DNA of 64,000 nucleotides from Devosia nanyangense (lineage in GTDB: Bacteria; Pseudomonadota; Alphaproteobacteria; Rhizobiales; Devosiaceae). A model generated the notes under the pieces. That model saw only the letters and a list, made by a program, of their open reading frames with translations. It did not search any database and was not told the origin of the DNA. The DNA lies in assembly GCA_016213505.1 (NCBI GenBank), contig JACRAF010000027.1, positions 1 to 64,000 on the forward strand, given 5' to 3'. Shown piece by piece: positions 6,604 to 62,397 of this stretch. Each line of letters begins with the position of its first letter. Position 1 is the stretch's first letter. The position numbers and the translations under genes are program-made.

Positions 6604-6678
6604 GGGGGATTCCGTGGCGCCGATCTATCGCTTGTCTCACATGACGCGGAGCGTGGGCACCCCATGTTTTCTTGTTGC

Positions 6679-6723
6679 GCTCTGGACCGATCGATCCCAA
6701 GAGGGCTCGATCGGCCAACCGCT
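6679..6723. repeat. Palindromic repeat, family C copy 1 (intergenic)
   Basis: A 45-bp element starting GCTCTGG and ending GATCGGCCAACCGCT, with arms built around CGATCG. It closely matches two tandem copies inside hemF (50267-50310 and 50324-50367). This copy lies between the GST and PuuE-UraD genes and ends just before the latter's stop codon. Confidence 0.7.
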
Positions 6724-6728
6724 GAGCG

Positions 6729-14970: not shown

Positions 14971-16054
14971 GCTCGAAAAGCGCCCGGAGCCGAGCCGGCT
15001 GATGGTGGTGGCGACACCGATCGCCTCGGTGCTGCTGACCATGCTGATCGGCGTGGTCGTGTTCGATGCCATCGGTATCAATGGGCAGAAGGCGGTGGTC
15101 GACATCTTCCTTACGCCGCTGCTCGCCTCCTACAAATGGCAGGACGTGGCGACCAAGGCGGCGCCGCTCATCATCATCGCGCTGGGCCTGTCGATCGGCA
15201 ACCGCGCCAATGTGTGGAACATCGGGGCCGAGGGGCAATATGTCATCGGCTCGCTGTGCGCGGCGGGCGTCGGCATTGCGGCCGGCGGTGGCGGCGGCGG
15301 GCTGATCATCACCGCGATGATCCTGTCCGGCGTCGTCGGCGGTGCGGCCTGGGCGGCGATCCCGGCGGTGCTGCGGACGCGGTTCTCGGTCAACGAAATC
15401 CTGTCGAGCCTGATGCTCACCTATGTGGCGCTGCAGGTGCTGGGGTACCTGGTGGGCGGGCCGTGGAAGGACCCGAACGGGCGCAACTTCCCGGCGACGG
15501 CGCCGCTGACGGCAGAGCAGAGCCTGCCGATCCTGTTCCCTGGAACGACCGTGCATCTGGGGATCGCCATCGCGCTGGTGCTGCCGTTCGTCTTCTGGCT
15601 GGTGACGGCGCGCTCGGTGTTCGGCTTCCAGATCCGGGTGGTGGGCAGCGCGCCGCATGCCGCAAGGCACGGCGGCTTCGACAGCAAGCAGACGATCTGG
15701 CTGGCGATGCTGATCGGCGGCGGTATGGCGGGGCTCGCCGGAGCGCTCGAATTCACCGGGGCGCTGAAAGCGATCAATCTCGGCTTTCCGTCGGGCTACG
15801 GGTTCACGGCGATCATCGTGAGCTTCCTCGGGCGGCTGCATCCTATCGGCTGCCTGATCGCGGGGATCGTCCTTGCGGTGACCTATGTGGGCGGACAAGT
15901 GGCGCAGACGACGGTGCATATTCCCAACGCCACTGCCGGGATTTTCCAGGCGATGATGCTGTTCTTCATCCTCGCCAGCGACATCCTCGTGCGCTACCGG
16001 GTGCGGATCGTGCGCAACCCAAAAAATGCGCCCGCACCGGCCGCGGGAGAGTGA
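14960..16054 (+). CDS. Nucleoside/purine ABC transporter permease 1
   Basis: A 364-residue inner-membrane permease of the BPD_transp_2 type (YufP/NupB-like). Multiple hydrophobic segments begin at about residue 18, with the landmarks PLIIIALGLSIGNRANVWNIGAEGQYVIG and FSVNEILSSLMLTYVA. The ATG at 14960, inside the end of the ATPase gene, is preferred because the longer frame adds only an arginine-rich stretch. Just before the stop is a short polar tail. Confidence 0.88.
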   Translation: MRLKLEKRPEPSRLMVVATPIASVLLTMLIGVVVFDAIGINGQKAVVDIFLTPLLASYKWQDVATKAAPLIIIALGLSIGNRANVWNIGAEGQYVIGSLCAAGVGIAAGGGGGGLIITAMILSGVVGGAAWAAIPAVLRTRFSVNEILSSLMLTYVALQVLGYLVGGPWKDPNGRNFPATAPLTAEQSLPILFPGTTVHLGIAIALVLPFVFWLVTARSVFGFQIRVVGSAPHAARHGGFDSKQTIWLAMLIGGGMAGLAGALEFTGALKAINLGFPSGYGFTAIIVSFLGRLHPIGCLIAGIVLAVTYVGGQVAQTTVHIPNATAGIFQAMMLFFILASDILVRYRVRIVRNPKNAPAPAAGE

Positions 16055-18106: not shown

Positions 18107-18160
18107 GGACAGGATTTGGCGGGGCGGGCCGGTGGTCCGCCTCCTCCTCATGCGTGTGGC

Positions 18161-18331
18161 CTCCCCCTCATCCGCCCTTCGGGCACCTTCTCCCACAAGG
18201 GCAGAAGGCGACCGAACCGAGGGTTCTGAGTGTTGGCCTTCTCCGATCGAGGGAGGGCATGACTGAGAAACTGCCGGCTCCTTGGCCTTCTGCCCTTATG
18301 GGAGAAGGTGCCCAACGGGCGGATGAGGGGT
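18161..18331. repeat. RIME-like mosaic repeat, family A (complete copy)
   Basis: About 170 bp between the binding-protein gene and puuD. The outer arms of about 32 bases (18164-18195 and 18299-18330) are nearly perfect inverted repeats, with CCCCTCATCCGCCC at one end and GGGCGGATGAGGGG at the other. CTTCTCCC/GGGAGAAGG words repeat inside. A transcript would fold into a long hairpin, so it may act as a terminator or stabiliser between the two units. Confidence 0.75.
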
Positions 18332-20897: not shown

Positions 20898-20916
20898 GGG
20901 CGTTTGTGGCAAAGGC

Positions 20917-21034
20917 CCCCTCATCGGGCCTTCGGCCACCTTCTCCCCCATAGGGAGAAGGACAGGAGCCGCGATGCTAGTGTGTCGGCCTTCTCCCCCG
21001 GGGGGAGAAGGTGCCCAACGGGCGGATGAGGGGG
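20917..21034. repeat. RIME-like mosaic repeat, family A
   Basis: About 118 bp between guaD and glcB, flanked by CCCCTCATCGGG and GGGCGGATGAGGGG, with internal CTTCTCCCCC and GGGGGAGAAGG arms. The reading frame of glcB is open back into this repeat, so automated start calls may wrongly include it. Confidence 0.72.
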
Positions 21035-21058
21035 CCTTGCCCCGACGAGGATCTTGCG

Positions 21059-23250: not shown

Positions 23251-23372
23251 CTCCCCCTCATCCGGCTTCGCCACCTTCTCCCACGAGGGGAGAAGGCAAT
23301 CGAGCCGAGAGGCCGGAGGTAGTGACCTTCTCCCCTCGTGGGAGAAGGTGCCCGGAGGGCGGATGAGGGGGA
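23251..23372. repeat. RIME-like mosaic repeat, family A
   Basis: About 122 bp between the convergent glcB and GT87-like genes. The ends CTCCCCCTCATCCGG and GGCGGATGAGGGGGA are inverted, as are the inner CACCTTCTCCCACGAGGGGAGAAGG and CCTTCTCCCCTCGTGGGAGAAGG blocks. The long symmetrical hairpin could serve as a bidirectional terminator here. Confidence 0.72.
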
Positions 23373-23397
23373 GGCGGCTGCGCGAGGCCATCGGGTT

Positions 23398-27910: not shown

Positions 27911-27983
27911 GTCGCGCTTCCGAACCGGAAAACCGCTTCGCATCCTCGCGTTCGCAAGGACATGCTTTTCCTGGAAACGCTCC
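27911..27983. repeat. Dispersed intergenic repeat, family B copy 2 (with insert)
   Basis: Matches the copies at 1209 and 49466: GTCGCGCTTCCGAACCGG at one end and TTTTCCTGGAAACGCTCC at the other. It has about 23 extra bases (CATCCTCGCGTTCGCAAGGA region) in the middle. Lies between the two GGDEF genes. Confidence 0.65.
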
Positions 27984-36056: not shown

Positions 36057-36130
36057 GGTCGGGGTCTCGCGCGAGCGGCCCCAGCCTCCTCCGGCCGGAG
36101 CCTGCCCTCGGGCGCGACGCGACCCGTGGG

Positions 36131-36232
36131 GCCACCTTCTCCCATCAAGGGAGAAGGCCACAACTCGAAACCCTCGGCTCGATTGCCTTCTCCCCACGTG
36201 GGAGAGGGTGCCCAGCGGGCGGATGAGGGGGA
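36131..36232. repeat. RIME-like mosaic repeat, family A
   Basis: About 100 bp between the dehydrogenase and the SDR, containing CCACCTTCTCCC and GGGAGAAGG arms and ending GGGCGGATGAGGGGGA. The left outer arm is shorter or lost. It separates two genes of the same operon. Confidence 0.65.
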
Positions 36233-36248
36233 GCAACGGGAGCGGAAC

Positions 36249-49419: not shown

Positions 49420-49515
49420 CTCACGTTCCGATGGAATCGGAACGAGTGCTCCAGGTTTCTGAGTTGTCGCGTTTCCGAACCGAAAGACCGCTTCGCAATT
49501 TTCCTGGAAACGCTC
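49420..49515. repeat. Intergenic hairpin plus family B repeat copy 3
   Basis: An inverted repeat, AGCACTC(A)CGTTCCGAT with ATCGGAACGAGTGCT, is followed by the family B element at 49466-49515 (GTCGCGTTTCCGAACC ... TTTTCCTGGAAACGCTC). The second element ends in the hemF stop codon. It may serve as the hemF terminator. Confidence 0.65.
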
Positions 49516-50474
49516 TACGGCCAGCGCACTTCGGGCGGCATCGAGGAGAGGATGGCTTCGACATTGCCGCCGGTCCTGAGGCCGAAGGTCGTGCCGCGAT
49601 CGTAGAGCAGGTTGAACTCGACATAGCGGCCGCGGCGAATGAGCTGCTCGTTGCGGTCGGCTTCGGTCCAGGGCGTCTCGAAATTGCGGCGGACGAGCTT
49701 GGGATAGACGTCGAGGAAGGCGCGACCGACGTCCTGGGTGAAGGCAAAATCGGCGTCCCAATCGCCGCTGTCGTGGTTGTCGTAGAAGATGCCGCCGACG
49801 CCGCGTGGCTCATTGCGGTGCTTAAGGAAGAAGTACTCGTCGCACCACGTCTTGAAGCGCTGGTAGTCGATGCCGGGATGGGCGTCGCAGGCGGCCTTGT
49901 AGGCGGCATGAAAATCGAGGCTGTCGGGATCGGTCTGGGTGCGCCGGCGGTCGAGCACCGGGGTGAGGTCGCCGCCGCCGCCGAACCAGGTGCGGCCAGT
50001 GACGATCATGCGCGTGTTCATGTGCGCGGCGGGGACGTTGGGGTTCCAGGGATGGATAATGACCGAGACGCCGGCGCTCCAGAACTCGGCGCCGGCCTCG
50101 GTGTGGGGCATCTGCCGGGCGAACTCTTCGGTGAAGCGGCCGTGGACCACCGAGATGTGGACGCCGGCCTTTTCGAACACCCGGCCATGGAGGAGACCGA
50201 TCTCACCGCCGCCGCCCTCGGGGCGCGACCACGGCTTGATCTCGAAGCGGGAAGGGGTTTGCTTCTGCTCTGGCCGATCGGACCGAAACTGGTCCGATCG
50301 TCCAACCGCGAGGGCTTCTTTGTGCTCTGGCCGATCGGCCCCAAACGGGTCCGATCGGCCAACCGCTGGGTCGGCCTCGATCGATTCGAGGCGGGCGCAG
50401 AGGTCGTCGCGGACCTGCCGGAACCAGGCGGCGGCTGTGGCTTTTTTCGTTTCGGTGTCGGTGGGGAGGTTCAA
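49515..50474 (-). CDS. hemF: Oxygen-dependent coproporphyrinogen III oxidase with repeat insert
   Basis: A 319-residue HemF that oxidatively decarboxylates coproporphyrinogen III in heme synthesis. Landmarks include the residues after [71 protein letters not shown] and [14 protein letters not shown]. Residues about 37-73 are not part of the family: they are two tandem 19-residue units ([19 protein letters not shown] and [18 protein letters not shown]) encoded by the palindromic repeat. The insert falls in an N-terminal loop before [15 protein letters not shown], so the enzyme may well be active. TTG start inside the trmL stop. Confidence 0.9.
50267..50370. repeat. Two tandem in-frame copies of palindromic repeat C in hemF
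   Basis: Units start at 50267 and 50324, 57 bases apart, and differ at about four of the first 44 bases. Each is a near-perfect palindrome, TGGCCGATCGGACC against GGTCCGATCGTCCA. A third copy lies at 6679-6723 between genes. Unit length is a multiple of 3 and contains no stop in the hemF frame. Confidence 0.8.
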
Positions 50475-61050: not shown

Positions 61051-61190
61051 CGTAGCCCTTCCCCCTTTTCCAGCGGCGACCGCATCAGCCGCACTCGAAG
61101 AAGACGAGGTCGCCATAGCGGTAGGGTTTTCGGAGCCCAAGGGTCTTTTCGTAGAAGGCCTCGGAGCGGTCGGTGTTGCTGACCGCAAGG
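61051..61190 (-). pseudogene. Truncated duplicate of the glyoxalase gene
   Basis: About 140 bp nearly identical to codons 13-55 of the complete glyoxalase gene at 62002-62397 (AV.NTDRSEAFYEKTLGLRK.YRYGDLVFF). A deletion of about 10 bases where the intact gene reads GCCGGGGTGCGA causes a TGA right after residue FFECG. The 3' tail word GCGTAGCCCTT matches the end of the intact gene, so the middle was probably deleted. No start codon remains. Lies between a secreted protein and the lipoprotein gene. Confidence 0.75.
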
Positions 61191-61200
61191 GAGCCGCGGC

Positions 61201-61914
61201 CTATATGGCGCCCGTCGCATCCTGAATCGCCTGAACCAGCTTTCGCTCCTCGTCCGCCCGCTCGATCTGGGTGGTGAGGGACTCCGTGATCGCCTTCGCG
61301 TCCTTGGTGATCTTGGTGAAGGCCACGGTGATGACGTTCTCGTCGGTTCGGCTCGCATTGCTCCCGTCGAACTTGAAGTCGACCGACATCACCGAGAATG
61401 TCAGGTTACCGCCGACCGAGCGGGAGACCGTGAACGTGCCCGTGTAGGTCATGTCCGAGATATCGGCGGGCTCGATCCCCCTCACAGCAGCTGCGTCGTG
61501 AACCAAGCTTGCGGCAATTCCGAGCCCCTTGGAGAATTCGCTGGGGTTTGCCGGACAGCCCGCTACGGCTGATTTTGAAAGTGTCGTGAATTGCCGGCTG
61601 ACGTTCACTGCACTCGCGACGCTGTTGGTGACCGAGGCAGACGGTGAGACCGACACCGTTGCGGCGCCATAGGTGGCGCTCCAGTCGGCTCCCGGCGCTA
61701 TTGTAACGGCGTCGGTTCTGCCCAGACTTAGTTTCGCCAGCGCGCTCCAAAGGCCTACTTCAGAGTCGATCGCCACCGCGCTCGCCAATTCGCAGGCGAT
61801 AGCCGTGAAGATCTCTTCCGAGGAAATTGGGACAGTGCCGATGGACTTTGGCAGTGTCGTGCATCCAGCTAGAGTCAACGCAGCCGATACTGCTGCGACA
61901 AATGAAATCCTCAT
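61201..61914 (-). CDS. Putative lipoprotein
   Basis: A 237-residue protein with a lipobox (signal LTLAGC, Cys at about residue 18), then a Ser/Thr/Ala-rich mature part of predicted beta character (SATYGAATVSVSPSASVTNSVASAV, YTGTFTVSRSVGGNLTF). The C-terminus is helical (ESLTTQIERADEERKLVQAIQ). Outer-membrane lipoprotein by this signal; no family recognised. The ATG at 61914 has GGGGG upstream. Base composition is slightly lower in GC than its neighbours. Confidence 0.7.
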   Translation of the reverse strand: MRISFVAAVSAALTLAGCTTLPKSIGTVPISSEEIFTAIACELASAVAIDSEVGLWSALAKLSLGRTDAVTIAPGADWSATYGAATVSVSPSASVTNSVASAVNVSRQFTTLSKSAVAGCPANPSEFSKGLGIAASLVHDAAAVRGIEPADISDMTYTGTFTVSRSVGGNLTFSVMSVDFKFDGSNASRTDENVITVAFTKITKDAKAITESLTTQIERADEERKLVQAIQDATGAI

Positions 61915-62001: not shown

Positions 62002-62397
62002 TTATCGGGGCTGCTGGAGCGCGTAGCCCTTCGGCGCCTCCATCATCAGGCCGATGAGGTGGCCGTCCGGATCGCGGATGAAGGCCATCCAGAGGTCGTG
62101 ATCGGGCATGGGCGAAACGAGGTGCGGTTCGCTCTCGATGGCGATGCCCTTGCTCCGCAGCTCGCTTGCGGCCAACAGCAGGTCGGGAACGCGGAAGTAA
62201 ATGGCGCCCTGGGCAATGGTCACCGGCTGCCCCTTTTCCGGCGGCGACAGCATTAGTCGCACCCCGGCGCAGTCGAAGAAGACGAGGTCGCCATAGCGGT
62301 AGAGTTTTCGGAGCCCGAGGGTCTTTTCGTAGAAGGCCTCGGAGCGGTCGGTGTTGCCGACGGCGAGGGCAATCTGGCCAATCTGGCTGAGGTTCAT
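62002..62397 (-). CDS. Glyoxalase/VOC family protein
   Basis: A 131-residue vicinal-oxygen-chelate protein with two betaalphabetabetabeta units: GQIALAVGNTDRSEAFYEKTLGLRK and AIYFRVPDLLLAASELRSKG, ending FIRDPDGHLIGLMMEAP, a typical metal-binding Glu near the end. It may be a lactoylglutathione lyase-like or dioxygenase-like enzyme; substrate unknown. A truncated duplicate of its 5' half lies 0.9 kb downstream. Confidence 0.85.
   Translation of the reverse strand: MNLSQIGQIALAVGNTDRSEAFYEKTLGLRKLYRYGDLVFFDCAGVRLMLSPPEKGQPVTIAQGAIYFRVPDLLLAASELRSKGIAIESEPHLVSPMPDHDLWMAFIRDPDGHLIGLMMEAPKGYALQQPR

Follow-up and report, generated by a model that had tools for sequence, protein, structure and literature searches.

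Two copies of a short palindrome stand in tandem inside the hemF gene of Devosia nanyangense, and this palindrome is very probably a non-autonomous, REP-like element of about 57 bp whose copies have multiplied in one clade of Devosia and in the phage of that clade. Its copies form a repeat family with conserved ends, a covarying stem and head-to-tail arrays, and relatives have empty sites corresponding to the insertions in hemF, hrpB and ycjX. The window referred to below is the whole 64,000-nucleotide stretch of contig JACRAF010000027.1 (assembly GCA_016213505.1) that was analysed, and the genome to which it belongs is designated G000.

The element and its insertion in hemF

A covariance model matched the element at three places in the window (Table 1). 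As originally predicted, two 57-base palindromic units are present in tandem inside hemF and the element recurs between genes near 6679-6723. The E-values of these three copies are flattered because the model was built from them and 23 other copies. In a check that did not rely on the model, a search for the 15-base core that allowed at most two mismatches gave 91 matches in the genome, compared with 35 for the reversed pattern.

Table 1. The hemF gene and the copies of the element in the window.
Feature	Position	Strand	Details
hemF, oxygen-dependent coproporphyrinogen III oxidase, host of the insertion	49515..50474	minus	319 aa, TTG start; PF01218, E 4.8e-88
Unit 1, first in hemF: A-GCGGTTGG-hairpin-CCAGAGC and A-rich tract	50313..50367	minus	covariance model, E 4.4e-12
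Unit 2, the tandem copy, starting 57 bp later in hemF	50256..50309	minus	covariance model, E 2.3e-9
Intergenic copy, hairpin 6679-6722	6675..6726	plus	covariance model, E 9.2e-12

The hairpins in hemF, at 50267-50309 and 50324-50366, are arranged head to tail with their starts 57 bp apart, and the two units are 85% identical over 55 bp. Each hairpin has one flank that is T-rich on the plus strand and hence A-rich on the hemF strand (50256-50266 and 50313-50323), and each unit encodes a peptide of 18 residues. The CCAACCGC end of the intergenic copy adjoins the stop codon of its right-hand neighbour, a minus-strand gene, with a gap of 2 nt past the edge of the model.

Alignment of 26 copies from G000 gave the plus-strand consensus GCTCTG[G/T]CCGAtCG..loop..CGcTCGGCCAACCGC. 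Read in the sense of hemF, a profile of 57 loci from Devosia sp. 67-54 (G006) consists of AGCGGTTGG, the stem, a loop of 4-5 nt, CCAGAGC and then about 10 nt of A-rich sequence. The stem has up to 14 pairs, two of which are often mismatched and mostly unpaired. Across the 26 copies of G000, 86% of the cells were paired over the 14 positions; pairs 2 and 3 are C-G and G-C in every copy, and pair 1 is C-G in 23. Sliding the partner strand lowered both the pairing and the number of double changes, the best alternative slide leaving 56.9% of cells paired. The stem also covaries. Double changes were counted in 35 cells, against a mean of 11.6 after shuffling, and none of 500 shuffles reached this value. 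The RNA of the three window copies is predicted to fold with -28 to -33.6 kcal/mol (z -3.5 to -4.7), the values for the first and second hemF units being -33.2 kcal/mol (z -4.7) and -28 kcal/mol (z -3.5), respectively. An outer stem around the element showed no excess in G006 (mean 4.63 vs. 4.76 shuffled) and a slight one in Hyphomicrobiales bacterium PMG_193 (G008; 4.94 vs. 4.80), where 26 of 200 shuffles were equally high. Ten element loci scanned against Rfam gave nothing above the curated threshold; when the threshold was relaxed, five loci had no match and the other five gave two sub-threshold matches, which were taken as chance.

The insert has no counterpart in any of the 16 other HemF proteins of the genus whose sequence spans the site; the fragments L100, L104 and L105, which stop short of the site, were left out of this comparison and G010 gave no HemF match. 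To this extent residues 37-73 or so are foreign to the family, as had been claimed. However, the net gain is smaller than two whole units: HemF is 29-36 residues longer than its eight fully aligned relatives, and 30 residues longer than the nearest of them, from the sister genome G012. Since this falls short of the 38 residues that two 57-base units would supply, some residues of the ancestral linker are evidently missing or overwritten. The PF01218 match begins at residue 72, directly past the insert, and the nine solved HemF sequences found align only from residue 70-80 onward. An AlphaFold2 model of modest confidence (mean pLDDT 65.9, nine sequences) assigns pLDDT values below 50 to residues 43-47 and 49-74, between a helix at 7-34 and a strand at 78-83, and draws residues 49-57, part of the insert, as a helix. 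In this model the insert is a low-confidence and probably flexible loop that separates the N-terminal helix from the first strand, and it appears to add a loop rather than to break the gene.

The prediction that the unit is free of stop codons in the hemF frame, and that the reading frame is kept, was borne out. This property is not peculiar to hemF. When 88 single units were translated in six frames, 85-93% were open in each frame, compared with 57-65% of mononucleotide shuffles. Survival of the hemF frame is better explained by selection acting on an element most of whose frames are open than by anything specific to hemF.

Distribution, placement and arrays

The core does recur across the genome, and neither this result nor the comparison with other HemF proteins refuted the original interpretation. 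In G000, 41 covariance-model matches at E <= 0.1 were reduced to 39 copies by removing two opposite-strand echoes, and the weakest copy kept has an E-value of 0.009. At E <= 0.05, G006 has 109 matches (108 without one echo), PMG_193 has 84, of which 78 were used, and the remaining carriers G005, G012, G001 and G018 have 14, 2, 1 and 1, respectively, all copy counts being lower bounds with the best 150 candidates scored per genome. Matches at E <= 0.01 were found in 7 of the 19 genomes of the genus, several of the genomes compared being drafts or MAGs. The same seven, all in one of 16 genera, matched in a family-wide search of 136 genomes, and none was found outside this genus under the stricter filters of that search, which lose weak matches. 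An exact-pattern scan of named genomes returned 32 stretches, in Devosia sp. 67-54, in PMG_193 and once in Devosia sp. 66-22.

On a tree of HemF and HrpB from 15 genomes, the five genomes with at least two copies cluster at a node without a support value, and G001 and G018 fall outside this group. These two share one copy, which adjoins the same neighbour gene as a copy in PMG_193. Because some copies have a common neighbour gene across species, not all of the spread can be recent.

Genes were called with a custom gene finder that took its codon usage from the window, and the coding calls beyond the compared genes depend on it; in G006, 53 of the 57 loci were intergenic and four were inside genes. 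The intergenic loci comprise 19 in convergent gaps, 29 in codirectional and 5 in divergent ones. The CCAACCGC end is turned toward a gene 3' end in 36 of the 53 (median 2 nt past the model edge, and no more than 15 nt in 29 of these loci) and the other end in 31 (median 17 nt). A strong orientation bias of the intergenic copies was considered and rejected, as a gene 3' end lies at the one side in 36 and at the other in 31 of the 53 loci. In PMG_193, where 67 of 68 loci were examined, one is inside a gene and the others are intergenic or near contig edges; none of the 13 matches examined in G005 (of 14) is inside a gene.

Arrays of 2-7 units account for 24 of the 57 loci in G006, with periods of 46-64 bp and a single one of 96 bp. 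Adjacent units have the same orientation, head to tail, in all 61 pairs from G006 and PMG_193. Units of G006 are 82% identical to one another inside an array, compared with 62% for units of different arrays. Among the arrays listed, the spacers resemble by eye the T-rich sequence that flanks the first unit, and the repeated module seems to be the flank plus the hairpin.

The closest known repeats are the CGTC REPs of alphaproteobacteria. The accessible part of PMC3733652 describes these as small hairpins close to gene 3' ends that lack a transposase, carry an unpaired CGTC (or TGTC, CCTC) at the foot of a stem of 8-9 bp whose first two pairs are A-T, and form mainly head-to-head dimers, the head-to-tail arrangement being negligible; intragenic copies, including those in uvrB of R. 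conorii and in RNA helicases, are already reported there. The Devosia element is likewise a small hairpin in an alphaproteobacterium, present in many copies, at gene 3' ends and within genes, with no dedicated transposase found. That it is a classical member of this super-family is possible, though doubtful. TGTC, an accepted variant of CGTC, precedes the stem on the plus strand in 37 of the 101 heads counted in G006 and in 42 of the 61 from PMG_193, the loop has the expected 4-5 nt and CCA follows the core stem, but TGTC is confined to part of the copies (TGGC stands there in 40 of 101 and 6 of 61, all four counts taking in only heads with an exact CTCTG), and the element ends in GCGGTTGG / CCAGAGC. 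Moreover, its stem opens with G-C rather than A-T pairs and is longer than 8-9 bp, it carries an A-rich tract, and its units stand head to tail in arrays of 2-7, whereas CGTC REPs are mostly head to head. The best reading is that of a new, lineage-restricted REP-like element of a kind already known from intragenic REPs and from the palindromic elements of Rickettsia.

Copies inside host genes and in a prophage

In addition to hemF of G000, the element lies in frame within hrpB of both G000 and G006, ycjX of G006 and, less surely, uvrB of PMG_193. The HrpB loop between GKTTR and LEPRRLAARAA has 34 residues in 14 genomes, 33 in G017, 53 in G000 and 74 in G006; G009 was dropped from this count as the wrong segment had been picked, and a separate comparison showed its site to be empty. 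The single unit in hrpB of G000 adds 19 codons, and DNA alignment with G012 and PMG_193 gave an insertion of 57 nt. In G006, two units add 40 residues (120 nt) at a position that, in the alignment, precedes the G000 site by about 6 codons. Two independent insertions into the HrpB loop fit best, because the site is empty in G012 (the sister of G000), in G005 (the sister of G006) and in PMG_193; a single insertion with later losses is a less likely alternative. The YcjX loop has 48 residues in G006, compared with 27-29 in 17 other genomes and 35 in G004, a gain of 19-21 codons (57-63 nt) over most relatives and of 13 codons over G004. In uvrB of PMG_193, two units 60 bp apart lie in a linker, and this case is weak since the length of the linker varies anyway, with extremes of 68 and 135 residues among the other 13 genomes of the comparison.

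The five host cases share one sense and, judging from the peptides inspected, all three frames are used. The other two in-gene loci of G006, L169 and L170, are homologues of prophage proteins, and the opposite sense inside genes was seen in L169 and in the ParB-like copies of the G000 prophage described below. The in-gene array periods of 57, 54 and 60 are all multiples of 3, an outcome with a chance probability of about 0.04-0.06, 20 of the 51 array periods in G006 being multiples of 3; taken alone, this is modest evidence.

The original prediction likened the element to the Rickettsia palindromic elements, which are about 150 bp long and inserted in frame in unrelated metabolic genes according to the accessible parts of PMC10969869 and PMC3733652. 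The parallel holds insofar as palindromes occur in frame in unrelated genes, here with empty sites for hemF, hrpB (in two genomes) and ycjX. It does not extend to size or placement, as far as those sources go: the Devosia element is about 57 bp long, mostly intergenic by gene 3' ends and often in tandem arrays, and REP elements are closer. The two are set apart by description rather than by sequence comparison. No palindromic element was found for Devosia among the open-access papers searched, which agrees with the earlier statement that none was known to have been described; in the accessible text of a comparison of Devosia genomes (PMC6981132), the word 'palindromic' refers to CRISPR alone.

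A prophage of about 40 kb occupies contig C5 of G000 from before or near 15042, the stretch examined beginning at 15001, to about 54 kb. It encodes a terminase, portal, major head protein, tape measure, primase, ParB-like protein, methyltransferase and helicase, and this stretch, about 1% of the genome, accounts for 15 of the 39 G000 copies. The copy in the primase is in frame and amounts to an insertion of 25 residues (75 nt) relative to the G006 homologue. A further two copies lie within the ParB-like protein, and there are others at the ends of genes. The unit does not have one strict length, since the gain is 25 codons rather than 19 in the primase and, in ycjX, 19, 20 or 21 according to which relative is compared. 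Most prophage copies have an outer GGGGCCCC/GGGG arm in place of the A-rich tract, with GTGGGG or GCGGGG at that position. A related phage, represented by an IMG/VR contig, carries a single copy, which stands between two genes of the structural region; its junction differs from those of all G000 prophage copies, and its flanks equal those of copy L171 in G006. A 14-bp direct repeat, CTCACGGCAACACC, flanks the element at L171 (G006:C5:569612) and at L236:9312-9362, and the flanks in an IMG/VR contig are the same; at L171 this repeat is the longest candidate for a target-site duplication. Searches of known phages gave partial matches only, the eight listed of 76 mycobacteriophage records covering 25-26 bases with E-values of 0.1 or worse, and plasmids gave no match.

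The repeat-rich prophage also encodes a NusG/RfaH-like antiterminator (phrog_6386, E 1.4e-20) at G000:C5:34310-34972 (L031:19310-19972), and the GCGGTTG of the element bears a loose resemblance to the RfaH ops motif. The element could accordingly be conceived as a phage regulatory site, for example of such an antiterminator, that escaped to the host. The antiterminator homologue, the concentration of copies in one prophage and the location of the IMG/VR copy between structural-region genes are in keeping with this idea, which is nevertheless improbable: relative to phage transcription, 11 of the 15 prophage copies point one way and 4 the opposite way, several are within genes, and the IMG/VR copy is at a different junction.

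Mode of spread

No Y1 transposase (Y1_Tnp, PF01797, IS200/RAYT) was found in the 19 genomes of the genus, compared with 5 of 14 controls, and no RVT_1 reverse transcriptase scored above the cut-off in the same 19, compared with 3 of 14 controls; one weak, sub-threshold RVT_1 match occurred in the non-carrier G013 and none in the seven carriers. Neither a resident RAYT nor an RVT_1 reverse transcriptase therefore explains the spread. The GTAG REPs that are mobilised by RAYT, in the available description (PMC3733652), resemble the element in being short hairpins with conserved unpaired ends, but there is no GTAG at the foot of the stem in the alignment and the search for the Y1 enzyme in the 19 genomes found none. 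Inspection by eye of the 25 largest clusters among 541 neighbour proteins revealed no recurrent neighbour gene resembling a mobiliser. Furthermore, the flanking target-site duplications expected of a MITE are not general, since in 80 of 88 single copies the two flanks have no run longer than 6 nt in common. The other eight share 7-14 nt, compared with about 3.5 expected from shuffled pairs, which is a small excess. With neither a mobiliser of the families searched nor a general target-site duplication found, we infer transposition itself from the empty sites.

A retroposed small RNA, with the A-rich tract past CAGAGC in the 57-locus G006 profile as its tail, is a very unlikely origin, as the tract stops at a fixed point about 10 nt past CAGAGC, most prophage copies have a G-rich arm there instead, and the seven carrier genomes are without an RVT_1 match. 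It is still harder to credit that the hairpins are translational bypassing elements over which ribosomes hop; those in hemF would be stable enough to suggest it, at -28 and -33.2 kcal/mol, but the in-gene copies compared are stop-free and keep the frame (hrpB gains 57 and 120 nt, ycjX 57-63 nt over most relatives and the phage primase 75 nt), which bypassing would not need. An intragenic tandem duplication, or minisatellite, of hemF's own linker that resembles the repeat by chance would account for two tandem units with a 57-bp period and is refuted by the 37 further copies in the genome with a covarying stem and by the absence of the insert from the 16 other HemF proteins.

For the preferred reading, a REP-like element spread by copying, the following route is suggested. 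A trans-acting activity may recognise the hairpin and place new copies, and arrays may then enlarge locally by slippage or unequal recombination; such local growth is suggested by the greater similarity of units within arrays than between them. Selection would leave copies beside stop codons or, rarely, in frame in flexible loops. A minority of insertions into genes would survive, since the unit usually has a length close to 57 and can be read through in most frames. A further possibility, advanced tentatively, is that the phage-borne element, moved by neither a Y1 transposase nor a reverse transcriptase, repeatedly supplies flexible linkers to host and phage proteins through insertions of about 57 nt, with independent hits in the HrpB loop. 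The exactly bounded host insertion is 19 codons and the phage insertion is longer.

Devosia is a free-living group with cultured members. Its closely related carriers and non-carriers, empty sites, tandem arrays and possible phage vehicle allow coding palindromes to be studied outside Rickettsia. Two questions become directly testable, namely how REP-like repeats without a transposase move and whether the proteins they decorate stay functional.

Other repeats were observed in the course of the analysis. A second palindromic family, CCTTCTCCC..GGGAGAAGGTGCCC..GGGCGGATGAGGGG, is present in the window at 18159-18330, 20912-21038, 23269-23375 and 36130-36233, and the element is nested inside members of this family at L028 and L029 of G000 and at L257, L269 and L285 of PMG_193. 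A larger repeated composite, CCCTCCCC..element..GGAGGGGGGACC, occurs in PMG_193 at loci that include L266, L273, L286, L295, L308 and L313. The window also contains a 32-nt direct repeat (GTCGCGC..CGAACCGGAAAACCGCT) at 1208-1239, 27911-27942 and 49466-49497, with 78-88% identity to the reference copy, and a 120-nt direct repeat at 61090-61209 and 62268-62387, the two copies being 88% identical and 1178 bp apart.
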